This document shows, one piece after another, positions 29,653 through 64,000 of a stretch of DNA of 64,000 nucleotides (the first letter of the stretch is position 1; every line of letters begins with the position of its first letter). The notes beneath the pieces are model-generated. The model did not search any database. It had not been told where the DNA came from and saw only the letters and a program-made list of their open reading frames with translations. Location: NCBI GenBank assembly GCA_002841375.1, contig PGZO01000001.1, positions 62,001 through 126,000 of the forward strand, written 5' to 3'. Source of the DNA: Firmicutes bacterium HGW-Firmicutes-7 (GTDB taxonomy: Bacteria; Bacillota; Clostridia; Lachnospirales; Vallitaleaceae). The position numbers and the translations under genes were made by a program.

Positions 29653-29653
29653 T

Positions 29654-29869
29654 ATGATCATTATAGTGTTATTTTTATATTTATTTGTCATATTATTTGA
29701 TTTTATTCCAATTTATACACAATTAAGCAAGAAGGATATTGGCATATATATTGTTTTAATCATTACAGCACTTACCCTTAGTGTTGCAATTGAAATGGGC
29801 ATAGAAATTCCTAGTCCGGCTAAGCCGCTAGAAGGTATCATTAGTTTTTTAATTGGTGAAGACAAGTAG
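29654..29869 (+). CDS. small two-helix membrane protein inside the germination operon
   Basis: The product has 71 residues. It has two hydrophobic helices (about 2-20 and 30-48) and a short amphipathic end (PLEGIISFLIGEDK). It starts one base after the stop of the C subunit gene and precedes the B subunit start by 16 bases, so it belongs to the operon. Clostridial ger operons sometimes carry such a small ORF; I recall no function with confidence. It may be an accessory subunit that tunes receptor assembly or sensitivity. The ribosome site is weak. Confidence 0.75.
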   Translation: MIIIVLFLYLFVILFDFIPIYTQLSKKDIGIYIVLIITALTLSVAIEMGIEIPSPAKPLEGIISFLIGEDK

Positions 29870-29885
29870 AATAAGAGGAAGAAGT

Positions 29886-35309: not shown

Positions 35310-35350
35310 AACCTTCTACTGTATTTTATAAATCAGTAGAAGGTTTTATT
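35310..35350. terminator. bidirectional terminator between murF and the GH18 gene
   Basis: AACCTTCTACTG pairs perfectly with CAGTAGAAGGTT across a 12-base AT-rich loop; A/T tracts flank both sides. It serves the convergent murF (plus) and GH18 (minus) genes. Confidence 0.85.
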
Positions 35351-37157: not shown

Positions 37158-37588
37158 GATAGCTCCTTATTAATAATTCATTCTATTGTTATGCCCATTA
37201 AGTAGCATTCTTAGCTATTTTTTGTAAAATATAGAAATACAATTCATTGGATTCGTTGTCTTAATAATACTAAACGAGAAATGAATAATAGAAAAGAATA
37301 ATTTCATCGACAAAAGAATAATTCCATTGACAACGATGAGCATAAAGGCCTATTTTCTAGCAAAACCTCTGCAGTTCGTACGGATATAGCTGTCGTTTGT
37401 ACATGAACCATTGACTTTGCCCATGATTTTGGTAATGTAAAAATGTGTAAATATTTTATATTCTATACTTGTGAGTACATATAAATAGTAGAAAAAATCC
37501 GTCCTACCAATTTGTTAATAAATTATCAATACAATATTAATATTCACTTTTGATAATCGTTTATTTGAATAATAAGGAGGACCTAAAA
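37158..37588. other. intergenic region upstream of the polyketide operon
   Basis: The 431 bases carry two tandem 20-bp repeats (37292-37331). I found no ORF. A TTGACT at 37411-37416 is the best -35 box for the operon, but only a poor -10 (TAATGT near 37433) follows, so the promoter is not assigned. The minus-strand promoter of the GH18 gene must also lie here. Confidence 0.45.
37292..37331. repeat. two tandem 20-bp direct repeats upstream of the polyketide operon
   Basis: AAAAGAATAATTTCATCGAC (37292-37311) and AAAAGAATAATTCCATTGAC (37312-37331) are 18 of 20 identical and directly adjacent. Two-turn spacing suggests a dimeric regulator site, but no cognate regulator is visible. Confidence 0.5.
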
Positions 37589-38341
37589 ATGGTAGAAGAA
37601 TACATGCCAAGGACGACTATGAAAAAAATAACCATTAACTTTATGAAAGATGAATATAAATCAATTGGTTGTTTTTGTTATTTTAAAGACCAGAGCAATT
37701 ATGATCATGCAAGAAAGCGGTTACATATTAAAGAACAAAACCATTTATCTTGTTTGAAATATGAGAAGAGACAAAAAAGTTATATTCTTGGAAGATACTG
37801 CGCCAAAAGGGCTATTTCGGGATATCTAGACGAGGAAGATGCTATGTATATTTCAATAGATCAGGGCGTTTTTAATCAGCCAATAATTATCGGTTCCAAT
37901 GATGAAAACCTTCAAGTTAGTATATCTCATTGCGGAAATTTTGGGGGAGCGATTGTATATGAAGAAAGATTTTTAATGGGATTAGATATTGAAAGAATTG
38001 ATGAAAGAAATAGATCAACCTTAGAAAATGAAATGACGACAGAAGAGAAGGTCATAGTGGCTTCCCTACCATTTGAAACGAACTATGGACTAACCCTGTA
38101 TTGGACAGCGAAGGAAGCTTTATCTAAGGCTTTAAAGACTGGATTAATGACGCCTTTTAGTATTTATGAAATTAATAAAATTCAAATTGAAGAAGGTTAT
38201 GCTAGTTGTTACTTTAAATTCTTTGCTCAATATAAGACTAGATCATTCCATATTGGCCAATATATGTGCTCAATAGTTTATCCTAAAAATATTGAGATTG
38301 ATATTGATGTTGAAAATATTTCAATGCTTCTTAATGTTTGA
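37589..38341 (+). CDS. Sfp-type 4'-phosphopantetheinyl transferase
   Basis: The product has 250 residues, the usual length of Sfp enzymes. It transfers the phosphopantetheine arm from CoA to the serine of carrier domains. The two signature blocks are complete: GLDIERID (131-138, magnesium-binding Asp133 and Glu135) and [12 protein letters not shown] (172-183). ATG 37589 follows AAGGAGG (37574-37580) with good spacing; an upstream TTG at 37550 lacks a site. It is the first gene of the operon and lies 28 bases before the AT-AT-ER gene, so it most likely activates the carrier domains of the two large synthases. Confidence 0.93.
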
Positions 38342-38369
38342 AAATCTGTGTGGTTATAGGAGGAAGAGT

Positions 38370-41300
38370 ATGAAAAAGTCAATTGTCTTTATGTTTTCAG
38401 GCCAAGGATCCCAGTATTATCAAATGGGAAGAGAACTGTTCTCTAATAATACGGTTTTTAAGAAGTGGATGTTAGAGCTAGATTATATTGCAAAAAGCAT
38501 TATGGGAGAGTCCGTAATTAAAGAAATTTTTCATATGAATAAAGGGAAGGCAGATGTTTTTAATCAAATCAAGTTTACACATCCAGCACTTTTTATTATA
38601 CAGTATGCATTAGCGCAAACCCTTATAGAAGATGGTATAAGACCAAGTCATGTAGTTGGCACAAGCTTAGGTGAATTTGTTGCAGCAGCAGTTGCCAAAG
38701 TCATTACTGTAAAGGAGGGGTTAGAAGGAGTAATATGCCATGCAAAGCTTGCAGAACAATATTGCGCTAAGGGTGGCATGACAGCAGTGATGGACGAAAA
38801 GACTTTGTACTTCCACATTCCGGTAATTAGAGAGAACAGTGAATTAGCATCCGTAAATTATCATAAGCATTTTGTTATTACGGGGGAAGAAGATAAGTTG
38901 AAAAAAATACATAAGTATTTAAAGACAAAAGAAATCATGTATCAAGAGCTTCCTGTGACTTATGGATTTCACTCTTACTTAATGGACCCCATTGAAGAGG
39001 AGTACAAAAAAGTTGTAAGTAAAATAAAATATCGCAAGCCTTCCATTGCTTTTATCTCAAGTATTTATGGTACAAGTATGGAAAAAATCTCAAAGGATTA
39101 CTTATGGGAAGTAACAAGAAAACCAATTAATTTTCCAAAGGCATTGGCTTTAATTGAAAAGCAAGGAAAATGTGTTTATATTGATCTTGGGCCATCGGGT
39201 ACTTTAGCAAATTTTGTAAAGCAAAATATGGATGATCAGATGGAAAGGGAAATATTCGCTACCTTAAACCCCTTTGGTCAAGATAGTATGAATTACAAGA
39301 AAATTATTGAAACTTTAAATAATAATGTTGAAGTTGAGAAGGAGGAAAAAGGTATGTTTGCTTACGTATTCTCGGGTCAAGGGTCACAAAAAAAAGGAAT
39401 GGGTGCAGAGCTTTTTGATGAATTTCCTGAATTAACAGCTAGCGCGGATAAGATATTAGGATATTCAATAAAAGAGCTATGTACAGAAGATAAAAAAAAT
39501 CAGTTAAATAAAACTGCATTTACACAACCTGCCTTATATGTAGTAAATGGATTAAGCTACTTAAAAAAGCTTAAAGAAACAGGGAAAACTCCAGATTATG
39601 TGGCAGGACATAGTTTGGGAGAATACAGTGCGCTTTTTGCTGCAGGTGCTTTTGATTTTGAGACAGGTTTAAAGTTAGTTAAAAAAAGAGGAGAGCTAAT
39701 GGGCAAGGTCATCAATGGAACAATGGCTGCGGTAGTTGGGTTAGATGAAGACCGGATCAAGAAAATATTGAATGAAAATAATTTTCACAGCATTGACATT
39801 GCTAATTATAATACACCAACTCAAATTGTTCTGTCAGGTCCAAAAGAATCTATTAAAAACGCTAAGGAGGTTTTTGAGAATGAAGGAGCTAGCCTCTATG
39901 CAATTTTAAACGTAAGTGGTGCTTTTCATTCAAGATACATGGACGATGCTAAAGATGCGTTTTCAGAATTTTTAGAAGACATCTCATTTAAAGAAATGCA
40001 TATTCCTGTAATCTCTAATGTGGTAGCAAGACCTTATAAAAAAGATCATATTAAAAATTATTTATGTGATCAAATAACACATTCAGTAAAATGGACAGAA
40101 AGCATTCGGTATTTGATGGGCAAAAAAGTTGAAAATATTGAGCAGGTGGGACCTGGAACAATATTAACAGGTCTTGTAAGCACGATTATCAATGAAGCAC
40201 AGCCATTAATCGTTGAAGCAGAAGAGGATGAACAGGAAATAGTTGAAGAGCAAGAAGACAAAGAGCAAGAAGACAAAGAGCAAGAAGAGAAAGAGCAAGA
40301 AGACAAAGTGCAAGAAAATGATGAAATTTTAGAAGTGCTTTTTGAAGAAAAGAATACGTATGAAGTGAATGAAGGCTCTGGCGCTGTCCTAGAAGAAAAA
40401 AACACTTCAAATAAAAAAGAGAAAAGTTATTCAATTACGGCATCCTCTCTAGGAGATGCTCAATTTAAGAAAGAAAATAATTTGAAATATGCATATTTAT
40501 CAGGGTCTATGTATAAAGGGATTTCCTCGAAAGAGATGGTCGTTAAGATGGGAAAAGCTGGACTTATGGGATTTTATGGGGCTGGAGGAGTCAGTACGGA
40601 AGAGATTGAAGAGGCCATTAAATATATTCAAGGAGCGTTAAATGAGGGGCAATCCTACGGAATGAATCTTTTGTATAACCCTATTGAAGTTAATAAGGAA
40701 GATGAAATAGTAGATTTATATTTAAGATACGGCATAAAAAATATAGAAGCTTCCGCATATATGAGTGTAAATAGTGCCCTTGTAAGATATAGGCTAAAGG
40801 GACTTAAAAAAGATAAGGCTGGAAGAATATATTCGGAAAACAAAATTATTGCTAAGATTTCTAGGCCAGAGGTAGCTGAAGTCTTCCTAAGTCCTGCACC
40901 AGATAAAATAGTGAATAAACTCTTAAACGAAAATAAAATTACAGCTACGGAAGCTGAACTTTCTAGAAAAATTGCTATGGTAGATGCTATTTGTATTGAA
41001 GCAGATTCGGGTGGTCATACGGATCAAGGCGTTGCTTACGCTTTAATGCCGGCCATAATAAAATTAAGGGATGAGATGGTTTCAAAATTTAATTATGAAA
41101 GAAAAATAAATATTGGTGCAGCGGGAGGAATTGGTACGCCAGAAGCTGCTGCAGCTGCATTTATTTTAGGGGCTGATTTTATAGTAACGGGTTCTATTAA
41201 TCAATGTACAGTTGAAGCAAGAACAAGTGAAGCGGTAAAAGATTTGCTTCAACAAGCAAATGTACAAGACACTGTATATGCACCGGCGGGAGATATGTTT

Positions 41301-41774
41301 GAATTAGGTGCAAAGGTTCAAGTTCTTAAAAAAGGATTGTTCTTTCCAGCAAGAGCAAATAAGTTATATGAGCTATACAGACAATACGATTCCTTAGATG
41401 AAATAGATGAAAAAACGAAGGATCAAATTCAAGAAAGATACTTCAAGAAAAACTTTGAAGAAATATTTGAAGAAGCAAAAGATTTTTATTCAAAGGAAGA
41501 AATGATTAAAGCGGAATTAAATCCTAAGCAAAAAATGGCAATGATTTTCAAGTGGTATTTCGGACATTCGACAAAACTTGCGCTTCGTGGAAGCCATGAA
41601 CAAAAAGTTGATTACCAAATCCACTGTGGGCCTGCATTAGGTGCTTTTAATCAATGGGTAAAAGGAACGGAGCTAGAAAATTGGCAGGATAGAAATGTTG
41701 ATATAATTGGTGAAAAAATTATGGAAGGTACAGCAGAGCTGTTAAATAAAAGGTTTTATGCATTGACAATATAG
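38370..41774 (+). CDS. trans-acting acyl hydrolase / malonyl acyltransferase / enoyl reductase fusion
   Basis: The product has 1134 residues. Domain AT1 (about 1-290) has a GxSxG serine in GTSLGEF (Ser99) but His124 where malonyl-binding ATs have Arg, so it is more like an acyl hydrolase that frees stalled chains. AT2 (about 329-610) has the canonical GHSLGE (Ser415) and Arg440 in KKRGELM, so it should load malonyl onto the carriers of all modules. A Glu/Gln/Lys-rich linker (about 625-660) joins to a PfaD-like flavin enoyl reductase (about 690-1134; [27 protein letters not shown]). The AT-AT-ER order resembles mupirocin MmpC. ATG 38370 follows AGGAGGAAG. No AT domain is found inside the two synthases, which confirms a trans-AT system. 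Confidence 0.93.
40248..40320 (+). repeat. 15-bp tandem repeat coding the EQEDK linker
   Basis: Four in-phase copies of GAGCAAGAAGACAAA (one with G for C in the last triplet pair) plus a degenerate fifth encode [20 protein letters not shown] and VQEND. It is a low-complexity, charged linker between AT2 and the enoyl reductase and can vary in length by slippage without breaking the frame. Confidence 0.85.
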
Positions 41775-41827
41775 TAAATGGGGGGCATAGACGACTATTG
41801 TTTTTTGCATAAGGAGGTAAGGGTAGG

Positions 41828-44800
41828 ATGAATTCTAGTGAAAATAATACTTGTTATTTAATTGGTGAGGCTTCTTTATTAATAAAGTGTGGAGAGATAT
41901 TAATAAATAATGGATTTATAATTAAAGGTGTAATATCTAAAGAAAAGAAAATATGTGAGTGGGCGACCAATAATGATTTAGATCGTATTAATCCTAAAGA
42001 AGCGTACTTTAAAGTTCTTAAAAAAGAACCCTTTGACTTTTTATTTAGTATTGTTAACTATCAAGTACTTAAAAAAGATGTATTAGATCTTCCTAAAAAA
42101 ATGGCAATAAATTTTCATGATGCTATTTTACCAAGGTATGGGGGCATACATGCTACCTCGTGGGCACTTTTGAACGACGAAAAGGTTCATGGTATTACGT
42201 GGCATATTATGGAAGAAGGTGTAGATCAAGGAAATATTTTAAAACAAAAGACAGTGGAAATTGACAATAAGGAAACAGCATTTTCACTGAATTTGAAATG
42301 TTACATTGCTGCTGTAGATGCTTTTGAAGAACTTGTTAAGGAGCTTACAACAAATACGTATACAGAAACGCCACAAAAGCTAGAAGATAGAACCTACTTT
42401 GAAAAAAACAAAAGACCTGAAAACGGAGGCATCGTATCTTGGCCTACAAGTGCGGAAGCTGTGGATAGACTTGTTAGAGCTATGGATTTTGGTGGAAAAG
42501 CCAATGGCTTTGGTTGTGTAAAAATAGTTATAATGGGCCATTTTTATATAATATCTAAAACAGAAATATTAAGAGCTAAATCAAATCTGAATTCAGGAAA
42601 AGTTCTTAAAGTAGAAAAAAGTTCCTTAGTGATTGGAACAACGACCTATAATATAAGGATCTATTTAAAATCCCTTACAGGCAAGGAATTAGATCTGTTT
42701 GATGATGAAAATATAAAGGGATTGCAGGAAGGTTATTTGTTAGAAAATGTGGATGGAAATATTAAGGAGAAAATAAATACCTTATACAGTAATTTTAGTA
42801 AATATGAAAGCTATTGGAAAAAAAGATTGGTAAATATTGAAAAACCGATAATTCAAGACATTTCGCGGATTCAGGAAAGTGAAGAAGATTTTTATATTAA
42901 GCAGCAAATTCAATTACCAAATAGTTTTATTAATTATGTTAATGGTTTAGAAAATGGACGAAGTCTAGTTGAATATATTTTTATTGCCATTAGTGCATTT
43001 ATAGCAAGAATTGGGGAAAATCAGTTTTTTGATATTGGTTTTTCTAGTGAAGAATTAAAGCTTGAATTAGCTGGCGTTGAAGACCAATATGCAAACATTG
43101 TTCCATATAGAGTTGAAATAACAGCACTTCAAAATCTAGAGGAATTATTTTCTATAATGGGGGATTATATAGAAAACATCAATAAGAAAAAAACCTATCC
43201 ATTTGAAATGATTTCTAGGCAGCCTGAATTATTTGCAGCAAGTGAAGAAGAAACTGCACTTACAATCCCTATTGTAGTTGAACAAAATAGAGACTTAAAG
43301 GAAATCCACTCAAAGGTGAAAGGTGATTTAGTATTTCTCATAGATGATCGTACGATGAATTGCCACATCATATTTAAAGGCAACAAGTATGATGAGAAAA
43401 AAACCATTGAATTAATGAAAAGGTTAACAATTTTTTTGAGTGAAATAGCCTTAAAACCGAATACACCTGTGATGAAAACAAATATTTTAACAACTGAAGA
43501 ATACAATAAAATCGTTGTTGAATGGAACAATAAAAGTGTTGAATACCCAAGAGAAAAATGTACCTATGAATTAATAGAAGAACAAGTTATAAAAACACCT
43601 GATCGTATTGCTGTGATTTATGAAGCCCAGCAGCTTAGTTATAAGGAGCTAAATGATCGAGCTGATCAGCTATCTCGCTATTTGAAGTGCAAAGGAATTC
43701 AAGAAGGTAAGCTTATTGGCGTTTTTATGGAACGATCAATCGATTTACTTGTAGTGTTAATAGGAATTTGGAAGGCAGGTTGTGCATATGTACCATTAGA
43801 TCCAATTTATCCAAAGGAAAGACTTTTATATATGATCGAAGACGCACACCTTCCATTAATAATAACTCAGTCTGATTTAATTGGTAGACTTCCAGATACT
43901 GCGGCTAAAAAGGTTGAAATTGACCTTGAAAAGGTAGAAATATTTGACGAAACAACTGCAATGCTTCCTAGCAAAAAAGGTAGAAGTAGGAAGAAGCTTT
44001 CTACAAAAGATAGACTAGCCTATGTGATTTTTACGTCGGGTTCAACAGGTAAACCAAAAGGAGTTGAGATTACCCAACGAGGGTTAACAAATTATCTTTG
44101 GTTTGTTGTAGAAAGCCAAGGATTTACTGAAAAAGATAAATTTATGGCACTTACAACGATATGCTTTGACATTTCATTATGCGAATTGTTTGCAAATTTG
44201 ATCAAAGGTGGGCAGGTGGAAATACTTCCAACTGAAATGCAACGTGATCCATATCTGTTAATGGAAAAAATAGAAAATAACTGGACTACTGCAATCCAGG
44301 CAACGCCTGCTACTTGGGAAATGCTTCTTTCAGTAGGTTGGAATAAGAAGTTGCCTTTAAAAATATATTGTGGTGGGGAAGCAATGAGCCCAGAGCTTGC
44401 CGAAAAGCTTATACCTCGATGTAGTGAGCTTTGGAATATTTATGGTCCAACTGAAGCAACAATTTGGTCCTCAATACATCATATTAAATCAACTGCTATA
44501 ACAATAGGACATCCGATATATAATACGCAATATTATGTTTTAGACAAATACTTAAACCCAGTACCTGAGGGAACACCTGGAGAGCTATATATAGGTGGAG
44601 ATGGGCTTGCTAGAGGATATCTTAACAGAAAAGATATGACTGCTGAGCGATTTATTTCTAATCCCTTTGATTTTGAAAAGAGTGATAGGATTTATAAAAC
44701 AGGAGATTTTGTTAAGTTTCTTCCAGGTGGGGAGGTTGAATGGTTAGGAAGAATTGATAATCAAGTTAAGCTAAGAGGTTTTAGGATAGAATTAGGAGAG

Positions 44801-56800: not shown

Positions 56801-57958
56801 AAAGCTAAAAACTTTAGTGAACTTGCGAAGGAGTGGGTACTAGGTGAAGAAATTAATTGGAAGACGATGAATTATGGTTCAAAAGCAAGTGTTATTTCTT
56901 TACCCGTTTATCCTTTTGCAAGAGAGCGCTATTGGATTACACAAGTAGAAGAACGAAATACTAGGTCTGACAACCATGGAAATAATTTAAGGCTTCATCC
57001 ACTTATCAATAGCAACATATCAACGTTAAAGGAACAAAGATTTTCTACTATTTTTAGTGGAGAGGAGTTTTATTTTACGGACCATATCGTTCATGGAAAG
57101 AAAATGTTGCCGGGCGCTGTGTATTTAGAAATGGCAAAAGCTGCTGGGGATTTATCTGAGGACAATAAGGTTGTAAAAATTAAAGATATTCTTTGGGCAA
57201 AGCCAATTATTATTTTTGATTCTTCAAAGGAAATAAATATCAGCCTCGTACCAGAAGAGGAGTATGTTGCGTATGAAATTAGTGAAAAGGTCAAAGGTGA
57301 AGAAAAGATAATTTATTCAAAGGGGAAGGTTGTTTATGAAACATTAAATGAAAGTAAGCCTATCCATGAAGTAGTTAATCTCGAGCGGATCAAAAACAAG
57401 TTCACTAAAGCACTCAGTAAACAAGCTTGTTATGAAGCATTTAATAAGCGTGGAATCCAGTACGGCACAAGTTTTCAAGTAATCGAAGAGCTTTTTGTTG
57501 GACAAAAAGATGCACTCGGCATAATTAAGCTTCCTAAAGAAGCCAAAGATATACGAAATGAATTTGTTCTTCATCCTTCTATTATTGATGGCTGTTTTCA
57601 AGTAGTTATGGGTGTAGGGTATGATATTAAAAAGGAAACTAATTTATACTTACCATTTTCTGTTGATGAGGTTCAATTATTCGATGAGCTTGTTGAGGAG
57701 ATGTTTGTATATGTTGAATTGATTCAAGAAGGTGTGGGTTCAAAGGAATATAATATTAGTCTGCTAGATTTTCAAGGAAGGGTGCTCATAAAAATGACCA
57801 ATTTTTCTATTATGGCATATGCAAATACCAATAGTACAAACTCAAATAATGTTGAAGTAGATAAGTTAATGGAACTACTTAATATGTTGTATGCCGGAGA
57901 AGTAGAGGTTGCTGCAATTAAGGATATGATGGGGGTGTTAATTAATGAGCAAAATTGA
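41828..57958 (+). CDS. giant trans-AT hybrid NRPS/PKS: formyltransferase loading module plus three extension modules
   Basis: The product has 5376 residues. Domains (approximate residues): formyltransferase 1-310 (NFHDAILPRYGG at 95-106), condensation-domain C-lobe only 318-570, adenylation 575-1075 (SGSTGKPKG, YGPTEATIW, RIDNQVKLRGFRI), ACP1 with Ser1137; KS1 1226-1665 (Cys1399, His1534, His1581), DH1 1850-2130 (His1882, Asp2047), KR1, ACP2 Ser2694; KS2 2793-3235 (Cys2963, His3098), serine-less ACP-like insert 3275-3355, DH2 (His3557), KR2, ACP3 Ser4349; KS3 4441-4880 (Cys4611), DH3 (His5086), C-terminal docking helices 5336-5376. No AT, MT or ER inside. KS sites have HGTGT and NIGHLE, so all look condensing. 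KRs keep the Asp of the B-type motif. AAGGAGG precedes ATG 41828. Confidence 0.95.
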   Translation: MNSSENNTCYLIGEASLLIKCGEILINNGFIIKGVISKEKKICEWATNNDLDRINPKEAYFKVLKKEPFDFLFSIVNYQVLKKDVLDLPKKMAINFHDAILPRYGGIHATSWALLNDEKVHGITWHIMEEGVDQGNILKQKTVEIDNKETAFSLNLKCYIAAVDAFEELVKELTTNTYTETPQKLEDRTYFEKNKRPENGGIVSWPTSAEAVDRLVRAMDFGGKANGFGCVKIVIMGHFYIISKTEILRAKSNLNSGKVLKVEKSSLVIGTTTYNIRIYLKSLTGKELDLFDDENIKGLQEGYLLENVDGNIKEKINTLYSNFSKYESYWKKRLVNIEKPIIQDISRIQESEEDFYIKQQIQLPNSFINYVNGLENGRSLVEYIFIAISAFIARIGENQFFDIGFSSEELKLELAGVEDQYANIVPYRVEITALQNLEELFSIMGDYIENINKKKTYPFEMISRQPELFAASEEETALTIPIVVEQNRDLKEIHSKVKGDLVFLIDDRTMNCHIIFKGNKYDEKKTIELMKRLTIFLSEIALKPNTPVMKTNILTTEEYNKIVVEWNNKSVEYPREKCTYELIEEQVIKTPDRIAVIYEAQQLSYKELNDRADQLSRYLKCKGIQEGKLIGVFMERSIDLLVVLIGIWKAGCAYVPLDPIYPKERLLYMIEDAHLPLIITQSDLIGRLPDTAAKKVEIDLEKVEIFDETTAMLPSKKGRSRKKLSTKDRLAYVIFTSGSTGKPKGVEITQRGLTNYLWFVVESQGFTEKDKFMALTTICFDISLCELFANLIKGGQVEILPTEMQRDPYLLMEKIENNWTTAIQATPATWEMLLSVGWNKKLPLKIYCGGEAMSPELAEKLIPRCSELWNIYGPTEATIWSSIHHIKSTAITIGHPIYNTQYYVLDKYLNPVPEGTPGELYIGGDGLARGYLNRKDMTAERFISNPFDFEKSDRIYKTGDFVKFLPGGEVEWLGRIDNQVKLRGFRIELGEIETVLKQQEEIDSAVVVLREYRVGFKGLYAFILAEKAGNLNVNTKLNEKIKEYLPGYMMPRHYVYLKHFPLTMNNKVDRKSLTTMTIDEIKNKYGDHERNKIKESRAIKLIENLKNDLLNLAAKVLKVDGGTIDFVTPLGEYGFDSVSFTELSVRIKEKYNVTLSPAIFYSYATLEKLSNYIFDVYEEVILKEYKEPSIATNQIEKAKGAIDEKALQALSSIKYNENLACNNKTLEREPVAIIGIGGIMPLSPNLELFWDNLINERDMITEVPKDRWDPNGFYGEAAMAGTNSNPARAGFVEDVDKFDAAFFNISPREAQLMDPQQRLFMETAWKTVEDAGYKPSDLSNSKTGVYVGVVATDYWDLMSQNPLNMDTFTTSGRINCVIANRISYMFNLRGPSAVIDTACSSSLVAVHRAVAAIQDGYCDGAIAGGVNVMVNPFFHVAIGKKGMLSGDGRCKTFDKAADGYVRAEGVGAIYLKPLSKAKADGDYIYAVIKSSAENHGGRSNSFTAPSAEAQTELLVEAYEKAGISPDTISYIETHGTGTSLGDPIEVNALKAAFNKMYDEHGETNSKKGYCGIGSVKTNIGHLEAGAGIAGMLKVLLSMKHGVLPGNINFNEMNPYIDIENSPLYLVKKTKEWTRIIDDFGNIIPRRAGISSFGFGGSNSHVTLEEYPENKVGNSINTEPQLIILSAKNEDRLKLYTKALLEFIQKNKGKEEIPLRSIAFTLQKGREEMEDRLAIITSSLTDLEEKLYQYVNGMTNIDNLFTNNIKGNKTRTKLLMEGNEGENFLKSIINNKRLSKLAQLWIIGVDINWDIIYSDNRPRRVPLPTYPFEKVRHWIPTQQSQNNNDLGFTSKGLHPFIDSNESTLEEQIYVKSIHKVDDSIKDHIANYDTIFPGVAYLEMARAAGQLANNKGLVVKLQNNVWPKALVLKENPIVMTISLNPTSQGVEYKVGSNDEEGNSIHAQGKLEYNNSYAPEEFLDIPALKAKMGNSLTKDACYHLFSNAGYQYGNTYKSIEQLYYSQTEALAQIKLPLECRASAKEFVLPPALVDGALQSVIVFIGNSFAESGTIFMPFAMGELEILSELPEKCFSYAIQTHYQEGASYSVAKFAIYITDEAGKVLVKIKDFSLRGLVPSNQVKRSVENPPSMYYRINSWELASVEAERGFVNVIGNTMVFDDSEEIFQGLETKLKDNLRRVVLVKPGLVYKELEGNIFEINMANQEDYSKLLRTLLDREMIPDNILHLLSKDNLSWNYEKITNQLKDSVYSMLYLSQAIIDLKQKNKIKFVYILRPKKIGWSPQYSAVKSFLKVLENENTRFCCKTVETLPISNVKMVELCMDELGGISAWKDKMVRYEAGKRFVAKYVNRVENAEVEVGELPIVDEGVYIISGGAGSLGLLFAEYLAKKAKVNLILLGRSELDDERAKRLKEIEALGSEVTYFNMDISKAKDVERMIKETREKYSRINGIIHCAGVTKDSFIFNKKQEEVDAVIAPKVWGTIWLDELTKDDKLDFFVMFSSISSILGNTGQSDYAYANGFMDDYAKMREFLKNEGRRYGKTLSIGWPFWKTGGMKIASETEKFLINTLGIVPMEVEEGIHAFEIGLTQKENHFIVLKGYKEKFNALFEKNNNNESQSLLEEEVKNKNVHNEPKEQGASDSEKELLEMVIKELISFTSKVQKLNLKDIEPLADISEFGFDSIGFTELSNEINGKYNINIMPSIFFEHSTLDSLAKYLVKEYYEQLKAVHKGYQKRENVVLKTKNNDALLPSLRFKQWSNKKVITEVEEEEEVIDKTKSKAEVAIVGMSGVMPQSKDLKEFWDNLEAGKDLITEIPKERWNYNEYFGDPTKEDNKTNVKWGGFMKEVDKFDPLFFGISPKEAVLMDPQQRIFLENAWKSLEDCGLKPSDISGSNTGVFIGAGAWDYLYLLKENDVDIQAQTSSGVSFSILANRVSYLLNLNGPSETIDTACSSSLVALQRAVEQIQNGHCDMAFAGGINVMSHPAIFISLSKAGMLCEDGRCKTFDKAANGYVRGEGCGVLLLKNLSQAIKDKNHIYGVIKGSATNHGGHANSLTTPNPNAQAEVIQKAWSQAQVNPSTITYIETHGTGTSLGDPIEINGLKKAFDQLNKEWGTNKIEAPYCGLGALKTNIGHLEWGSGIAGVIKVLLAMKYKRMPASIHFNEQNPYINLKDSPFYIIDKTMEWKSLIDEDNRPIPRRAGVSSFGFGGVNAHIALEEYEDKAALLIEKETQEEVVLLSAKNEERLIDYVGEMITFIKESEVKSASLEVEYAHISSLVQNEIKLLAAIIMHVNKEEISCSRALEEYGFDLISFHKLVEQIGDRFKIEVKTTEVTSCATIEEIAEHLWNKGYRTLKKQFSKNTNSNILQEIEYSINLKDLAYTLRTGREEMEVRLAIVTNSVKDLISKLEQFVKGYENIEGVAVGSIKADKLKIDFLVTGDKGKELIRALIEDQKLLEVAQLWTSGVKIEWSKLIHNHICRLISLPTYPFAKERYWITDYMNGRSRSLGNKGITTTLHPLVHKNTSNLYEQRFTTLLNKKAFYLKDHVVKGESVLPGAAIIEMVRAAGQMCVGSRISKISDIIWVKPIIVEQSEEIHISLLPEGEAIEYEVVAMNEDHSRTIYSQGKLSMEADEKEEPIEYVDIEEIKRNCVEKKTGENCYKKFEKMAFNYGESFQSIKELYCGEEEAISRLELAASLMEDFDEFILHPALLDGALQTIIGIKNPNVEGEEVYLPFTMGEVEILKPLEKECYAYGRLNNSFEKDTSKIRKYTIIIADTSGRVMVRINDFVMRAIVPNELRKTEDVHYFHSQWINKVLEHTAHDELQHEHILIFDTNENFYNMLQKKMPEHQSNIWLVKPGKSFRKVGENIIEIDPEDSNAYKLLIEMLRLENQMPDYILHAWSKESFEEKKERLKIQLDLSVFSVFNLCKALIAEKINKKVKVVYIHERFDGNIQPHYRSISGLAKTINNENPNLMIKTVEVDVPLEIIDRSLEELIFGHQDREVRYEDGLRTVRSYEKLELDRLKKEKDIPIIDNGVYLITGGVGELGLIFAEYFARRTKVKLVLTGRSNLNDAKLNRMKEIEKLGSKVTYIKCDISKKDNVVELIHKIKNEFGNIHGIIHAAGVVKDSFLLKKSLQEMKAVIGPKLYGTIWLDEATKDEKLDFFVMFSSIASVIGNIGQSDYAYANSFLDNYVYFREAKREKEERSGMTISINWPLWIEGGMKMDESATRRMKEAFGFSPITTSIGLKAFEDALTYLISNMLVVKGEESSVRSALELQVKDDSLNNKQEVIKNSRNNDLDLVGQLEERLKIILSKEINLPTSRISILEPFEKYGIDSIMIVSLNRVLENHFGKLSKTLLFEVKNIKELAVYLIENHRNHLVDLEQGAAELHTNEAQIKPIKMAFEKENINKPRFFYKGGISSENSFYKEKDIAIIGMSGRYPMANNLNEFWENLKAGKDCITEIPEERWDKDEYYDPDKNAKGKSYSKWGGFIEDVDKFDPMFFNISPKEAEFMDPQERIFLETVWHTIEDAGYTRAALEQEKVGVFAGIMYNHYPMYAAEESIKGNVIAVNSSYASVANRVSYYLNLRGPSIALDTMCSSSITAVHLACESIKRGESDLAIAGGVNVTIHPNKYILLSQGKFAASDGKCKSFGEGGDGYVPGEGVGALLLKPLEKAIADGDKIYSVIKGSALNHGGKTNGYSVPSPKAQGDLILEAFKRAQIDPRTISYVEAHGTGTSLGDPIEIAGLVKAFHTFTKEQQFCAIGSAKSNIGHLESAAGIAGITKVLLQMQHKQLVPSIHSDSRNPNIDFEESPFYVQHEVEEWKNPVIDGKKYPRRAGISSFGAGGSNAHIILEEYEKPALKSISREPQLILISARDEERLRAYLQEIIQYLEGQVGLEQPSLEDIAYTLQVGREGMEERIGIVASTIQELISKLKKGYEAEYDNKEVIRGRIKKSKTKTEDINGLENNQKRFLELFKAKNFSELAKEWVLGEEINWKTMNYGSKASVISLPVYPFARERYWITQVEERNTRSDNHGNNLRLHPLINSNISTLKEQRFSTIFSGEEFYFTDHIVHGKKMLPGAVYLEMAKAAGDLSEDNKVVKIKDILWAKPIIIFDSSKEINISLVPEEEYVAYEISEKVKGEEKIIYSKGKVVYETLNESKPIHEVVNLERIKNKFTKALSKQACYEAFNKRGIQYGTSFQVIEELFVGQKDALGIIKLPKEAKDIRNEFVLHPSIIDGCFQVVMGVGYDIKKETNLYLPFSVDEVQLFDELVEEMFVYVELIQEGVGSKEYNISLLDFQGRVLIKMTNFSIMAYANTNSTNSNNVEVDKLMELLNMLYAGEVEVAAIKDMMGVLINEQN
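51650..51892 (+). other. ACP-like domain without the phosphopantetheine serine, inserted after KS2
   Basis: Residues about 3275-3355 of the giant synthase have the carrier-protein pattern (helix, then EEYGFDLISFHKLVEQI, then a helix IEEIAEHLW), but the serine of the DSx motif is Leu3321 (codon CTG at 51788-51790). The block sits inside the linker that follows KS2, between the LSAKNEERLIDY helix and the LAYTLRTGREEM segment. These segments are adjacent after KS1 and KS3, so it is an extra insert. It cannot carry a substrate in the normal way and may be structural or a docking site. Confidence 0.75.
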
Positions 57959-60900
57959 TAAGGACAAGCTTAAAATAATTCATAGAATTAAAGATCAAGA
58001 GCTCACGCCTGAAGAGGGCTTTAAACTGATTATGGAATTAGACAATCATTCACAGCTCATTACCTATCAACAAGAATGGCTTGAAAAGGATATAGAAAGT
58101 ATAGGTTCTGGAAATTTTCTTCAGGGGACTACTATTATTTTTGATACAGACCAGGCATTAATGGAATTAATGAGCGGTTATTTTCGTGAGAACAATAGCA
58201 CTTCTCGTGTGATTTTGGTATTGAAGGGCAGCAGCTATAAAAAGATGGCAATTAATGAATACGAAATAAATCCACATAGTCAAAATGATTATAGTGAATT
58301 AATTAGCGACCTTAAAGGAGAAGGGGTTATCCCTCAAAATATTCTTCATTTCTGGTCAAAACACGATTTGAATCTTAAAAAAGATGAAAAATTATTAGAG
58401 GAAGCTTTAACTGAAAGCCTTTTTTCAATTTTTTACATTACCAAAGAGATGATGAAGTTAAAACCTGAAAGTAAAATTAATATGTTGTATTTATTTAAAG
58501 GAGATATTGTTGAAACACAGCCCCAATATGCCGGGATAGGAGGGTTTTTAAAAACTTTAAAAATTGAAAATCCACACTTTAATTGTAAATCAATTTCTTT
58601 AAAGGAAATACACAATAGGTCAGCAGTTATAGAAATAATTCTAGATGAAATGAAAGAAATAGACTTTGGAGAAACAGAGGTTTTTTATAATAAATTTTTT
58701 AAAAGACATGTTAGAAGCTATAAAGAATACAACCAAATTACGGAAAACTTAAAGTTGACAAAACTTAAAGATCAAGGTGTCTATGTTATTACTGGTGGTG
58801 CTGGAGAGATAGGTTTGATATTTGCTAAATATCTTGTAAGCCAGGTAAAGTGTAAGGTTGTTCTAACGGGAAGAGCGGATTTAAGTGAAGAAAAAAGAGA
58901 AAAAATAAAGGAGTTGGAAGAAGAAGGCTCTGAAATAACGTATTTAAAAGCGGATATTTCAAATAGAGTGGATGTACAAAGAATAATAGCAGAGATCAAA
59001 GAAAGGTTTAATGAAATAAATGGAATTATTCATTCAGCAGGTGTTTTGAGAGACGCTTTCCTCTTTAAGAAAACGAAGGAAGAGCTTGACTTGGTTATTG
59101 CTTCAAAGGTATTTGGAACGACTTATATTGATGAGGTGACTAAAAAAGAAAAGTTAGATTTCTTTGTGTGTTTTTCATCCATAGCCGCAACTTTAGGAAA
59201 TATAGGACAAGCTGATTATGCTTATGCAAATAGTTTTATGGACTATTTTGCAATGAGGAGGGCTCATTATGTAGTAAAGAATAAACGATTTGGCAAAACA
59301 ATATCCATTAACTGGCCACTTTGGAAAAATGGCGGAATGGAAATAGATGTAGAAACAATAGATTGGCTTAAGGAAAATAAAGGGTTCGTTCCATTGAGTA
59401 ACAATAATGGATTGTTAGCCTTTCAAGTAGCATTAGCTTCCTCGTTGAATCAGTTAATCGTTTTTGAAGGGAAAAAAGAAAAAATTAGAAAAATATTTTC
59501 CATAACTGATCAAGGAATAAGAAGATCGAAGGATTTTAATATAGAGGAAGATAAGGTTAGTTTAGAAGTCATAAGGGAGCATACATTACAATTTTTAAAA
59601 AGTTTGATTTCTATAGAGACGAAAATTCCTATTTCAAAAATTAAAGAAGAGGACGACTTTGAAAAGTTCGGATTAGATTCTGTTATGGTAATGAGCTTGA
59701 ATAGACAATTAGAAAAAGAACTTGGAGCGTTAACAAAGACGTTATTTTATGAAAATAATACGCTAGGTGAGCTTTCAAGTTATCTTGTAAATAACTATAA
59801 AGATCAAGTAGTAGAAAAATTCCAACCTTTTCAAAGTGAAACGAAGGATAGGGTTACTCTTGTAGAAGCAAAGGTTCATGAACTTGAGGAATTGCCTAGG
59901 AAGAGATTTATTAAATCAAAAACAGAAACCTTAACAGAAATCGTAATTGAAGACAACAATACAAATAAAGAAGAAATAGCTGAAAACGATGTTGCCATTA
60001 TTGGTCTTAGTGGAAGATATCCAATGGCTGAAAATCTAAATGAGTTTTGGTTTAATTTAACCCAAGGAATGGATTGTATAACTGAAATTCCAAAAGAAAG
60101 ATGGGATTATAAGGATTATTTTGATTCTGAAAAAGGAAAGAAAGGGAAAAGTTATAGCAAATGGGGAGGATTTATTGACAACGTTGATAAGTTTGATCCG
60201 CTGTTTTTTAACATTTCACCTAGAGATGCGAAATATATAGATCCTCAAGAGCGGTTATTTTTGCAAACTGTATGGCATACACTTGAAGATTCGGGGTATA
60301 CAAGGGCTAGGTTAAGTAAAGAAGATGTAGGGGTTTTTGTAGGAGTAATGTTCGGGCACTATCAATTATATGGCCCTGAAATGAGTTCCTCTCATGCATC
60401 CATTGCAAACAGAGTATCTTACTATTTAAACTTAAATGGCCCAAGTATTGGGTTAGATACGATGTGTTCTTCTTCCTTAACAGCAATCCATCTTGCAATA
60501 GAAAGCATTAAAAGAGGAGAATGTGCTGCTGCAATTGCTGGGGGTGTTAATCTAACGCTACATCCTAATAAATATATTTTATTAAGCCAAAACAATTTCC
60601 CGTCAACAGATGGAAAGTGTAGAAGCTTTGGGGAAGGAGGCGATGGCTATGTTCCTGGTGAAGGAACGGGCGCTTTACTTCTTAAGCCTTTGAATAAGGC
60701 TGTAGCGGAGAGAGATAGAATATATGGTGTAATAAAAGGAAGTGCCATAAATCATGGAGGAAAGACAACTGGATATTCTGTACCAAATCCAAATGCCCAG
60801 GCGGCTTTACTTTCAAGCGTGTTTAAAAAGTCTGGAATAGATCCAAGAACATTAAGCTATATTGAAGCCCATGGAACCGGAACTGCCTTAGGAGATCCAA

Positions 60901-63900
60901 TTGAAATTGCAGGGTTGGTTAAAGCGTTTTCAGCGTTTACAAAAGATAAAGGCTTTTGTTCTATCGGATCAGTAAAATCAAATATTGGACATCTCGAATC
61001 CGCTGCAGGCATAGCAGGAATTACGAAGCTGCTTTTACAAATGAAGAATAAATGCCTTGTGCCATCCCTTCATTCTAAAGAACTTAACAAGAATATTACA
61101 TTCGAAGAAACACCCTTTTTTGTTCAACAAACGCTAGAAGAGTGGAAAGAGGTGGAAATTGAAGGCGTTAAGTATCCAAGGCGAGGGGGCGTCAGTTCTT
61201 TTGGAGCTGGTGGTTCTAATGCCCATATTATTATAGAAGAATATATAAAAGTCGATGAACCAAAGACAATATCTAATTTTGAACCTCAAATATTTATACT
61301 ATCAGCAAAAAATAGAAATAGGCTTAAACAATATGCAAAAGAAATGATTGGTTTTCTTGAAAATTCAGAAGATTCCATTGAGGATATCTGCTATACACTT
61401 CAATTTGGACGAGAAGAAATGGATGAGAGACTAGCGATAATTGGTCGTTATAAAGAAATAATAATTGATAAATTAGAAAGATTTATTTCGGACGAGATAA
61501 ATGTTGATGAATTGTTTACAGGCAATATAAAGGATCAGAAGGAAGAAGAAACGATTTTTAATGAAAATTCCAAGTTAGACTATTTAAACCTTGCTAGAAG
61601 TTGGGTAAATGGTAGCCATGTGGACTGGCATATATGCCATAAAGGCAGTAATAAACAAATTATATCGATGCCGGGCTATCCCTTTGCTATGGAGTCCTAC
61701 TGGGTAGAAAATCAAATAGAAGGATTTGCAAAAGAGCTGAATCCATTAAAAAACAATAGTGAGTTTGGATATGATGAGTATAACGTAGAAAACAATGAAA
61801 CTAGTCCTATAACAAATGAAATAATGTATTTAAAAAGGGTTTGGCAACAAGCTCAAATCGAGCAACCTTTCAGAGAAGAAAGCGACCTTGATTATATACT
61901 TGTATTTGAAGATAAGAATAAAAGGATATTGGAACGAGACACGACAATTAAGGATCAACTTATTATCATTACAGAAGGGCAAGAATACGAAGAAATCGAT
62001 GCGTTTGAATATAAATTAAATCCAAGAAGACAAGAAGATTATGTAAGACTATTTAATAGGATTCAAGAAAGCAACATTGTAATTGGTACCATCATAAATT
62101 TGTGGACTTATAACAGCAAACCTTATGCTGATGATGAGTTGCAGCTAGACGATGACTTCATTTACGGCATCACTCATTTAGTTAATACCGTTAAGACGAT
62201 AGACCATCTGAAAATACATACAATAAGAAAAATTTTCAACTTAGTAAGTATTGGAGCGTACCCAACGAATCCTCTCTTTGAGAGTCTGCAAGGCTTTAAT
62301 CGGTCAATTAAACTGATTATGCCCAACTTGGAGATGTCCTGGATCGGATTAGATGAAAGCACTAAGATGCCTAAGGTTATTATGGAGCAAATAAACGCTG
62401 CGCCCTCATTAGATCAAGAGATTATTTATAGAAATAATAAAAAGTACATATGTAAAATTGAAGAAGTTCAAATTGATGAGGATGAAAGTGTCATTAAAAA
62501 TAATGGTGTTTATTTAATTACAGGTGGCGCAGGTGGATTAGGTCTTGTATTCGTTAAACATTTGACTGAAAAGTATAGCGCAAGGATTATCATTACAGGC
62601 CGGTCACCATTAAAGGGCGAAAAAGAAAAGCGTATAAATGAATTTCTAGCAAAAGGCCACGAAGTGATTTATATGCAAAGTGATGTTGGAAATTATGAAG
62701 AAATGAAACGAGTTATTAGAGACATTAAAAGTAGATTTGGAATACTGAATGGTGTTATTCATGGAGCCGGCTTTATGGAAGATAAAACGATTTTAGAAAA
62801 AGACATTCAAGCTTTTAATGGTTCTTTGTGGCCAAAAATTCAAGGAACAATTGTGCTTGATCGGGTGACAAAAGCAGAACAATTAGACTTCTTTGTGATG
62901 TTTTCATCTATATCTGCGGTGTTAGGTGATTTTGGTCAATGTGATTATGCTGTAGGAAATAAATATCTTGACGCCTATGTAAATATTAGAGAAGAGCTAA
63001 GGCTAAAAGGAAAGAGAAAGGGTAAAACAATCTCTATGCAATGGCCACTATGGAGAGAAGGTGGTATGCACTTAGACGCTGAGGGAGAAGCGTTATATTT
63101 ACAAACGTCAGGTATGTCTTACCTTGAAACACAAGCTGGAATAGAAGCCTTTGATAAAATATTAAAGGGTAGAGCGTCTACTGTAATGGTCATAGCTGGA
63201 CATAAAGAAAAGGTTGAAAGGTTTCTAGGTATTTCAAAGAAAACGCTTAAGGCTGATGCAAAAGATTTATATACAAAAAGCATTATTCAAGTGGTGGCTG
63301 AAGATATTAAACTGGATTCAATTGAAAAAGTAGAACGAGCGCTTCAAGCAGAAGCCTCAAAAATATTATGTATAGATCCAAACCTTATGGATATCAATGA
63401 GAACCTAGGTAATTTTGGCTTTGATTCAGTGAGTCTTAAAGAGTATAGTGATAAGATTTCTTTTATATTCGGTATAGAACTTCAACCAACAGTATTCTTT
63501 GCGTATAGTACTATAAAAAGTTTGACAGTCCATCTTTTAGATAAGTTTGGTGAGCTTGTAAAAGGTGGTGAAACAGAGGTAAGTAATTATGAAGTGGAGA
63601 ATCAACCAGATAAGGTGATTGAAAATATAAAACCAGATTCAAGTAGTTTAGATTACATAGAACTTATTGTTGAACCAGTTGCAATTATAGGCGTAAGTGG
63701 TATTTATCCTGGGGCAAAGGATATAAATGAATTATGGAATAATCTTGTTGAGGAAAAGGACATGATTACTGAAATTCCTCAGGAGAGGTGGGATTATCGT
63801 GATTATTTTGGAGAGGAAGCGACAGCGGATCATAAAATCAATACAAAGTGGGGTGGTTTTATTGAGGATGCAAATAAGTTTGACCCTAAATTTTTCAATA

Positions 63901-64000
63901 TTTCTCCAAGAGAAGCTGAGCTTATGGATCCTCAACATAGATTGTTTCTACAGACAGTATGGAAAACAATAGAAGATGCTGGATATAAACCTTCATCTCT
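57945..64000 (+). CDS. second trans-AT polyketide synthase, 5' part (continues beyond the window)
   Basis: ATG 57945 overlaps the end of the preceding gene by 14 bases, with GGGGGTG just before it. The frame stays open for 2018 codons to the right edge, so the gene is incomplete. Domains (approximate residues): N-terminal docking helix 1-35, KR 36-500 (GGAGEIG about 283, Tyr425), ACP Ser579, KS4 682-1115 (Cys841, HGTGTALGDP, NIGHLES), KR 1285-1760 (GGAGGLG, Tyr1668), ACP Ser1828, KS5 from 1910, cut by the edge. It starts with KR-ACP, completing the KS-DH half module at the end of the previous protein. KS4 is followed by a KR but no DH, so module 5 should leave a hydroxyl. No AT is seen. Confidence 0.95.
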   Translation, partial: MSKIDKDKLKIIHRIKDQELTPEEGFKLIMELDNHSQLITYQQEWLEKDIESIGSGNFLQGTTIIFDTDQALMELMSGYFRENNSTSRVILVLKGSSYKKMAINEYEINPHSQNDYSELISDLKGEGVIPQNILHFWSKHDLNLKKDEKLLEEALTESLFSIFYITKEMMKLKPESKINMLYLFKGDIVETQPQYAGIGGFLKTLKIENPHFNCKSISLKEIHNRSAVIEIILDEMKEIDFGETEVFYNKFFKRHVRSYKEYNQITENLKLTKLKDQGVYVITGGAGEIGLIFAKYLVSQVKCKVVLTGRADLSEEKREKIKELEEEGSEITYLKADISNRVDVQRIIAEIKERFNEINGIIHSAGVLRDAFLFKKTKEELDLVIASKVFGTTYIDEVTKKEKLDFFVCFSSIAATLGNIGQADYAYANSFMDYFAMRRAHYVVKNKRFGKTISINWPLWKNGGMEIDVETIDWLKENKGFVPLSNNNGLLAFQVALASSLNQLIVFEGKKEKIRKIFSITDQGIRRSKDFNIEEDKVSLEVIREHTLQFLKSLISIETKIPISKIKEEDDFEKFGLDSVMVMSLNRQLEKELGALTKTLFYENNTLGELSSYLVNNYKDQVVEKFQPFQSETKDRVTLVEAKVHELEELPRKRFIKSKTETLTEIVIEDNNTNKEEIAENDVAIIGLSGRYPMAENLNEFWFNLTQGMDCITEIPKERWDYKDYFDSEKGKKGKSYSKWGGFIDNVDKFDPLFFNISPRDAKYIDPQERLFLQTVWHTLEDSGYTRARLSKEDVGVFVGVMFGHYQLYGPEMSSSHASIANRVSYYLNLNGPSIGLDTMCSSSLTAIHLAIESIKRGECAAAIAGGVNLTLHPNKYILLSQNNFPSTDGKCRSFGEGGDGYVPGEGTGALLLKPLNKAVAERDRIYGVIKGSAINHGGKTTGYSVPNPNAQAALLSSVFKKSGIDPRTLSYIEAHGTGTALGDPIEIAGLVKAFSAFTKDKGFCSIGSVKSNIGHLESAAGIAGITKLLLQMKNKCLVPSLHSKELNKNITFEETPFFVQQTLEEWKEVEIEGVKYPRRGGVSSFGAGGSNAHIIIEEYIKVDEPKTISNFEPQIFILSAKNRNRLKQYAKEMIGFLENSEDSIEDICYTLQFGREEMDERLAIIGRYKEIIIDKLERFISDEINVDELFTGNIKDQKEEETIFNENSKLDYLNLARSWVNGSHVDWHICHKGSNKQIISMPGYPFAMESYWVENQIEGFAKELNPLKNNSEFGYDEYNVENNETSPITNEIMYLKRVWQQAQIEQPFREESDLDYILVFEDKNKRILERDTTIKDQLIIITEGQEYEEIDAFEYKLNPRRQEDYVRLFNRIQESNIVIGTIINLWTYNSKPYADDELQLDDDFIYGITHLVNTVKTIDHLKIHTIRKIFNLVSIGAYPTNPLFESLQGFNRSIKLIMPNLEMSWIGLDESTKMPKVIMEQINAAPSLDQEIIYRNNKKYICKIEEVQIDEDESVIKNNGVYLITGGAGGLGLVFVKHLTEKYSARIIITGRSPLKGEKEKRINEFLAKGHEVIYMQSDVGNYEEMKRVIRDIKSRFGILNGVIHGAGFMEDKTILEKDIQAFNGSLWPKIQGTIVLDRVTKAEQLDFFVMFSSISAVLGDFGQCDYAVGNKYLDAYVNIREELRLKGKRKGKTISMQWPLWREGGMHLDAEGEALYLQTSGMSYLETQAGIEAFDKILKGRASTVMVIAGHKEKVERFLGISKKTLKADAKDLYTKSIIQVVAEDIKLDSIEKVERALQAEASKILCIDPNLMDINENLGNFGFDSVSLKEYSDKISFIFGIELQPTVFFAYSTIKSLTVHLLDKFGELVKGGETEVSNYEVENQPDKVIENIKPDSSSLDYIELIVEPVAIIGVSGIYPGAKDINELWNNLVEEKDMITEIPQERWDYRDYFGEEATADHKINTKWGGFIEDANKFDPKFFNISPREAELMDPQHRLFLQTVWKTIEDAGYKPSS

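Follow-up and report, generated by a model that had tools for sequence, protein, structure and literature searches.

A trans-AT polyketide cluster of a Vallitaleaceae bacterium, predicted to make a formylglycine-primed polyene alcohol and carrying a candidate target copy of AccD

What does a trans-acyltransferase (trans-AT) polyketide cluster in the Vallitaleaceae make, how does its product leave the assembly line, and why does a second copy of a carboxyltransferase subunit gene, accD, stand at its end? The cluster begins in a 64,000-nucleotide stretch of Firmicutes bacterium HGW-Firmicutes-7 (GCA_002841375.1, PGZO01000001.1), here called the window, which comprises bases 62,001-126,000 of a 252,887-base contig (C8) in a 4.08-Mb genome of 89 contigs that is 99% complete. 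Coordinates above 64,000 carry the window numbering on, so that a contig position equals the window position plus 62,000. Between window positions 37,550 and 91,619 (~54 kb) lie seven genes on the + strand: a 4'-phosphopantetheinyl transferase (PPTase), a free protein with two acyltransferase (AT)-like domains and an enoylreductase (ER), three AT-less polyketide synthases (PKS1-3; 5,376, 5,717 and 4,802 aa) with ten ketosynthase (KS) domains in total, an iron-dependent alcohol dehydrogenase (Fe-ADH) and the second AccD (Table 1). We lean slightly toward one explanation for the whole, in which the line would build an N-formylglycine-primed polyene alcohol and AccD would be a copy of its target.

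The first-pass annotation of this DNA, made from the sequence alone, had described the PPTase, two AT-less synthases with at least five KS domains and an N-formyl-aminoacyl starter, all of which are borne out by Pfam matches and open reading frames (ORFs). The window alone holds four ORFs of the cluster (263, 1,160 and 5,376 aa, and a fourth that runs open to the window end) and five KS domains: PKS1 contributes three, and PKS2 a complete one plus one (at 63,672) that the window edge truncates. The right boundary is a mere window edge, because the remainder was found on the same contig. We therefore rejected the idea of a fragment with frame disruptions downstream, which the annotation had named as fatal to its proposal: the contig carries the remaining genes, and all seven frames are intact to 91,619. 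Spacing is operon-like, with overlaps of 14 bases between PKS1 and PKS2 and 8 between PKS2 and PKS3, and a gap of 12 before Fe-ADH.

None of 13 PKS pieces matched an AT (E 0.001), the only AT domains being in the free protein (Acyl_transf_1 4.7e-83 over the whole protein), and among the best PDB relatives of KS2 are KSs of trans-AT systems, PksJ for example (618 bits). The annotation's free AT-AT-ER protein stands as to the ER, a member of the NCBIfam PfaD family (680 bits, cut-off 449), and as to the second AT domain (GHSLG). The first domain reads GTSLG and by eye lacks the Arg present in the second; by a rule that we assume for telling the two apart, it looks like the acyl hydrolase (AH) of AH-AT-ER proteins. 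A complete trans-AT cluster, with the module chemistry given below, is highly probable. The annotation's remark that such clusters are less common in strict anaerobes carries little weight, as PMC3250452 lists them in several Clostridium species in 2012, one with 16 KSs.

An orthologous cluster occurs in a second species of the genus (genome G001). The first 567 residues of PKS1, searched against 96 relative genomes, matched at full length only in this genome and G001 (67%) among the matches listed, those in other relatives being partial and mostly in ORFs of ~300 aa. G001 has all seven genes, from PPTase to AccD, in unchanged order and at 66-82% identity over the best aligned pieces, and its cluster is flanked by the same neighbours, a D-Ala ligase/Mur ligase pair upstream and genes matching 95,621-100,532 downstream. 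It has in addition a PP-loop protein between PPTase and AT, and tandem peptidyl carrier proteins (PCPs) in the loading module.

The domain layout was drawn from Pfam and from models built from the cluster's own domains. Modules 1 and 2 read KS-DH-KR-ACP (DH, dehydratase; KR, ketoreductase; ACP, acyl carrier protein), module 3 KS-DH//KR-ACP, module 4 KS-KR-ACP, modules 5 and 6 KS-DH-KR-ACP, module 7 KS//KR-ACP, module 8 KS-KR-ACP, module 9 KS-DH-KR-ACP and module 10 KS-ACP-TR (TR, thioester reductase), the double slashes marking modules split between proteins. Three enoyl units and then one hydroxyl unit, as proposed in the first pass, follow from DH and KR in modules 1-3 and KR only in module 4. 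KS1-9 have intact Cys-His-His catalytic residues, and each of the nine KRs has its catalytic Tyr and Asn; KR7 and KR8 are without the Asp that marks B-type KRs, by a typing rule that we take as given. Module 8 of G001 retains a dead DH (His to Cys), a domain lost from module 8 here. Tandem ACPs were considered for modules 2 and 9 and rejected, the second PP-binding stretch being a linker insert.

The phylogeny of 59 KSs is consistent with this layout. KS1 groups with a Pelosinus KS1 that follows the same starter (support 100/99), and KS5, KS8 and KS9, each after a KR-only module, form one clade (100/99) that also holds a Bacillus velezensis KS, which agrees with hydroxyl groups from modules 4, 7 and 8. 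Labels for upstream chemistry were clustered on the tree, though far from cleanly (hydroxyl, 7 changes versus 11.0 in shuffles; ene, 14 versus 20.0), in a set that includes near-copies and 14 of 59 KSs without an assignable upstream module.

The starter can be read from the first domains of PKS1, a formyltransferase (FT), the C-terminal half of a condensation (C) domain, an adenylation (A) domain and a PCP. The FT has N95, H97 and D133, read from the sequence, which we take to be its catalytic triad; HHxxxDG was not seen in the sequence of the half C domain. Over the pocket region of the A domain (197 residues) the best solved relative is 4zxh_A (ABBFA_003403, Acinetobacter; 171 bits) and the next single-stretch match 5u89_A (163 bits); we take 4zxh/4zxi and 5u89 to be glycine-activating. 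At the positions that we take to line the pocket, DICQYGIIW was read by eye in this domain and DILQLGVVW in that of 4zxh_A. Glycine is probably the substrate of this domain. The second A domain of LgrA had appeared nearest, with an E value of 1.8e-180 that summed the two A domains of LgrA, whose separate scores are 310 and 292 bits; this candidate was rejected because 4zxh_A and 5u89_A score higher over the pocket region, where the first and second LgrA domains reach 70 and 92 bits.

The first pass had called the starter module unusual, and here it went astray. A scan of genome_contigs (84,980 species) for the FT-half C region, made with two short patterns, turned up 14 loci with FT-region relatives. 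In nine of them the match also spans the half C domain and reaches at least residue 522 (three in Pelosinus, one in another Bacillota metagenome-assembled genome, two in Planctomycetes, two in Gammaproteobacteria and one in Acidimicrobiales), and in the other five, all Alphaproteobacteria, the match ends at residue 269-330. Being found at 14 loci in diverse phyla, the starter is a widespread loading unit, and formylating domains in the loading modules of gramicidin, rhizopodin, oxazolomycin, conglobatin and phthoxazolin are described in PMC5764310. G001 also holds, upstream of its cluster (C6:88,389-90,782), a 797-aa half C-A fragment, 70% identical to PKS1 residues 335-1091 and without FT and PCP, which is either what is left of a duplication or a free-standing loading protein.

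Some formylated starters are cyclised. PtxD, OzmP and CongE have an ATP-pyrophosphatase domain with SGGKDS and are likely ring-closing enzymes, PtxD being thought to form the oxazole of phthoxazolin, according to PMC5764310. An oxazole or oxazoline formed in this way, as in oxazolomycin and phthoxazolin, would make the product an oxazole polyene with no formamide. PP-loop genes lie near the FT start in G001 and at the loci L074, L064 and L063 (L063 by its sequence start); the G001 protein bears SGGKDS, and the G001, L074 and L064 proteins are WbuX-like at 154-176 bits, below the cut-off of 203. Beside the loading module of this genome's cluster, however, there is no SGGKDS cyclodehydratase. 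The PPTase and AT frames meet where G001 holds its PP-loop gene, the one relative found in this genome, 31% identical, is the terminal domain of a nonribosomal peptide synthetase (NRPS) in another cluster, and no such ORF occurs at the Pelosinus locus L062 either. DH and KR of module 1 would also remove the keto group destined for C5 of the ring. We consider cyclisation here unlikely, and predict N-formylglycine as the starter: because the PP-loop gene is missing, a formamide is expected here and a ring is possible in G001.

As the first pass expected, the end of the line and the release step lie outside the window. The terminal TR domain scores 218 bits against TIGR01746 (cut-off 213.35), with GVTGVLGG and YERSK readable in it. 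This domain and the adjoining Fe-ADH, which is kept in G001, point to release as an aldehyde and then an alcohol, and reductive release is very probable on this evidence. The loading module would activate and formylate glycine, and the free AT would load malonyl units. Nine elongating modules would then give (CH=CH)3, CH(OH)CH2, (CH=CH)2, CH(OH)CH2, CH(OH)CH2 and CH=CH. KS10, without its catalytic His, would be non-elongating and hand the chain to its ACP, from which the thioester reductase would free an aldehyde for the Fe-dependent dehydrogenase to convert to a primary alcohol. We infer a parent compound of about C21H31NO5 ([M+H]+ 378.2275) if the trans ER is idle, with two further hydrogens for each enoyl unit reduced. 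KS10 reads EGQGTGT instead of HGTGT (His to Gln) and keeps the Cys and the second His. The retained residues would suit a KS10 that still elongates, making the chain two carbons longer, or a terminal module that is a relic after earlier release; the identical change in both species, and the ACP and TR directly after KS10, make either version quite improbable.

The AccD of the cluster is full-length and keeps the zinc cysteines and SGGARMQEG, and the other AccD of the genome belongs to a group of fatty acid genes, next to AccA and an ORF that resembles biotin carboxylase. A second accD in a cluster, with a housekeeping copy elsewhere, recalls andrimid, whose cluster includes admT, a copy of accD that gives self-resistance (PMC13151354). 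An AccD match (E 1e-30) was found in 46 of the 59 genomes searched, and two copies in four: this genome (G000), G001, G009 and G013. This genome and G001 each have one AccD in the cluster and one elsewhere, despite further trans-AT loci in both. In the AccD tree the two cluster AccDs group together (100/98), as do the two housekeeping AccDs (100/95), and these pairs join as sisters (100/99). As read from this tree, accD was duplicated inside the genus before the two species split, and the copy was kept with the cluster in both. Acquisition from other trans-AT clusters in the family, those of accCDA type, was dropped as an explanation, as the tree places AccD otherwise: the cluster AccDs of G009 and G013 do not group with it.

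Eighteen columns separate the cluster pair from the housekeeping pair. In the cluster AccDs T is changed to C just before ASGGARMQEG, a site that we take to adjoin the oxyanion-hole loop and where T or S stands in all 26 other AccDs as well as in those of Staphylococcus aureus and Escherichia coli; H is changed to F at 194, where 25 of the 26 others have H. The lone second AccD would be a less sensitive target copy, and by analogy we put its role in self-resistance at just short of an even chance. Read as a resistant target copy, AccD leads us to propose that the product may inhibit the carboxyltransferase of bacterial acetyl-CoA carboxylase, the enzyme that andrimid inhibits.

The same pathway could instead use AccD for malonyl-CoA supply, an extra beta subunit raising carboxylase activity, and the first of several observations that weigh against our explanation belongs here: trans-AT clusters of the same family (G009 C20 and G013 C1:1,266,001-1,335,000) hold accC-accD-accA beside their AT, AT-ER-like and KS genes, accC and accA being named from sequence starts. 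In this genome, by contrast, accD alone is duplicated, and a lone beta subunit needs housekeeping partners. There is one clear AccA (ACCA 413 bits), two weaker ACCA matches (50 and 32 bits; cut-off 23) falling in carboxyl transferases of greater size (540 and 510 aa). Descent from the genus's own housekeeping gene, and not from the G009/G013 copies, also speaks against a supply gene of their kind, and we regard this alternative as a serious minority possibility. On the same adverse side, cluster and housekeeping AccD both have Thr at the equivalent of E. coli M203, which we take to be the position of the AdmT change. In the butuanimide producer, whose product hits AccA/AccD, the target gene is not duplicated (PMC13151354), so the link between target copy and inhibitor runs one way only. 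As to chemistry, Tyr replaces Gly of the HxxxGxxxxP motif in DH1, the trans ER could act on any of the enoyl units, and the split modules lower the certainty of the hydroxyl/ene pattern. No exporter gene, which the first pass had also placed beyond the window, occurs between 37,550 and 91,619; promoter-like sites were about as frequent as in shuffles (7 versus 7.6, and 15 versus 11.5, sd 3.0), and a terminator scan found no terminator. Set against these points, the reductively released product with AccD as its target copy remains the explanation we slightly favor.

Table 1. Features of the cluster in window numbering
Feature	Coordinates	Strand	Remarks
4'-phosphopantetheinyl transferase	37550..38341	+	Pfam ACPS 1.9e-13; sister G001 orthologue 66%
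Free AH/AT-AT-ER protein	38292..41774	+	Likely start ATG at 38370; Acyl_transf_1 x2 + NMO
PKS1, 5376 aa	41828..57958	+	FT-half C-A-PCP / KS1-DH-KR-ACP / KS2-psiACP-DH-KR-ACP / KS3-DH
Formyltransferase domain	41828..42697	+	Formyl_trans_N 5.6e-19 (62-157 of Pfam domain)
C-terminal part of condensation domain	42815..43528	+	Match to Condensation profile positions 293-455 alone; 28.2 bits (cut-off 30.6)
Adenylation domain, predicted glycine	43577..45028	+	AMP-binding 4.7e-83
Loading-module PCP	45149..45346	+	PP-binding 3.1e-14
Module 1, KS1-DH-KR-ACP (enoyl)	45512..50017	+	
Module 2, KS2-(psiACP in linker)-DH-KR-ACP (enoyl)	50207..54979	+	
psiACP of module 2	51707..51898	+	PP-binding 37.5 bits, cut-off 20.8; EYGFDLISF replaces GFDS motif
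Module 3, split PKS1/PKS2, KS3-DH//KR-ACP (enoyl)	55151..59786	+	
PKS2, 5717 aa, first 2018 in window	57945..64000, continues to 75,098	+	KR-ACP / KS4-KR-ACP / KS5-DH-KR-ACP / KS6-psiACP-DH-KR-ACP / KS7
Module 4, KS4-KR-ACP (beta-hydroxyl)	59985..63536	+	Next KS groups with KSs after KR-only modules
psiACPs of modules 6 and 9	69,735-69,911 and 82,603-82,767	+	
PKS3	75,091-89,499	+	KR-ACP / KS8-KR-ACP / KS9-psiACP-DH-KR-ACP / KS10 (His to Gln)-ACP-TR
Fe-ADH (iron alcohol dehydrogenase)	89,512-90,714	+	Sister G001 copy 82%
AccD	90,762-91,619	+	accD TIGR00515 360 bits, cut-off 317

The linker inserts form a subject of their own. The KS-AT linker of modules 2, 6 and 9 is interrupted by ~115 residues with an ACP-like stretch that lacks the serine of carrier proteins, here called psiACP. 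PP-binding scored above the Pfam cut-off in all four inserts tested (three from this cluster, one from G001), and the serine is replaced by Leu, Pro and Pro in the three cluster psiACPs. An AlphaFold model of the linker piece has an ordered helical core with a predicted local distance difference test score (pLDDT) of ~85-91 (residues 41-120) and poor flanks (mean 68; predicted template modelling score 0.54), and the titles of the best 50 of 411 Foldseek matches name carrier proteins or chains holding one (best E 3.8e-4). Across 16 stretches, partly picked for psiACP so that the ratio is not a frequency, 20 of 95 KSs had one: three in this cluster, two in another PKS of the genome, six in G001, five in G009, two in B. 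velezensis next to pdhABCD (presumably the macrolactin cluster), and one each in P. sonchi (Paenibacillus) and on a K. grimontii (Klebsiella) plasmid. There were none in G013 (10 KSs) or in the Pelosinus stretches (11 KSs). Ser occupies the serine column in 0 of 20 psiACPs (12 have Pro) versus 79 of 81 canonical ACPs from nine stretches. Full-length matches were found in three of 22 family genomes (five with partial ones), in one of 398 phylum-sample genomes (this genome; most may hold no trans-AT PKS) and in three plasmid records of the eight with any match. The K. grimontii plasmid pNY3A (79,462-103,974; L118) carries a PKS/NRPS region with KS, psiACP and ACPs, much of which lies in frames without an annotated gene.

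Presence of psiACP changed 2 times on the ACP tree, built on few columns, versus 18.5 in shuffles, and 10 times versus 11.9 on the KS tree, a pattern near to that of one family placed on many KS lineages. Between this genome and G001, psiACPs are 49-63% identical, three ACPs 74-79% and three KSs 86-89%, and a contact role would fit this fast divergence. LINKS is reportedly a three-helix element of the KS-AT linker. According to PMC11907408, LINKS helices in this linker are believed to join assembly lines sideways; psiACP is alike in being an extra helical element at the same place and differs in having an ACP fold without the serine. We tentatively suggest, at somewhat less than even probability, that psiACP is an old domain family of its own, moved from one KS to another by recombination, that carries no chain and serves protein contact, either sideways zipping of assembly lines in the manner supposed for LINKS or recruitment of the free AT-ER protein to chosen modules. 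A limit of one psiACP per polypeptide was not significant (at least one in 19 of 33, two in one; shuffles were as low in 8.7%), and we saw no link with module chemistry, as psiACP occurs with DH-KR and KR-only modules. In the open-licence library searched, no listed paper was seen to describe this linker fold.

How does the cluster compare with known systems? Its starter is of a known kind; reductive release, Fe-ADH and the lone AccD set it apart. The oxazolomycin and phthoxazolin clusters of Streptomyces share an F-A(Gly)-PCP start and an AT-less line with conjugated enes (PMC5764310), whereas here there is no SGGKDS cyclodehydratase and no NRPS termination, module 1 has DH and KR, and the line ends in TR and Fe-ADH with an AccD copy. 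The Pelosinus clusters (L062, L074 and neighbours) are alike in an FT-half C-A-PCP-PCP start, a KS1 of the same clade and KS-DH-KR modules, and in the L062 and L074 genomes a PKS fragment ends, by sequence reading, in a TR-like domain, as here. They differ in the fewer modules seen, a PPTase-like ORF (by reading) after the last PKS gene and broken contigs, and neither AccD nor Fe-ADH was noticed among the ORFs of the Pelosinus stretches examined. L062, L063 and L074 share an FT-start trans-AT line, the TR-ended fragments of the L062 and L074 genomes being on other contigs. Linear gramicidin shares a formylated start and reductive release of an alcohol; its synthetase (LgrA-E) differs in making a peptide, not a polyketide, and its A domains are not the nearest over the pocket. 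The thailandamide cluster carries an AccA copy, with a different starter, release and chain. These three also differ in andrimid, where admT is likewise a cluster-borne copy of a carboxyltransferase subunit (PMC13151354). A literature search for the combination of features found here returned no paper.

Around the cluster, a glycosyl hydrolase family 18 gene with S-layer homology repeats (window 35,349-37,157) precedes the cluster in this genome and follows it in G001, which reads as a local rearrangement at the cluster border. Downstream of AccD are two further genes, one of glycosyl hydrolase family 25 and the other without a Pfam match. The host is probably a spore former, because spore germination genes (GerAC type and Spore_permease, by Pfam) are present at window 28,486-30,992. 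Elsewhere in the genome, contig C48 (149,407-179,208) carries a second trans-AT line with PKSs of 3,297 and 4,712 aa, five KSs and two psiACPs; its N-terminus resembles a glyceryl loader, by a motif that we take to be of FkbH type, and a 1,932-aa NRPS-like frame ending in a PP-loop domain follows. A third PKS locus (C12:32,527-37,282) has two KSs and lower domain scores than the other two. G001 has two more PKS regions (C6:245,001-300,000 and C1:318,001-338,000) with 12 and 5 KSs and three psiACPs.

Between the two species a candidate starter cyclase has been lost or gained, and the pair offers a natural test of formamide versus oxazole. If AccD does serve self-resistance, the product would point at a validated antibacterial target, found via its duplicated target gene.

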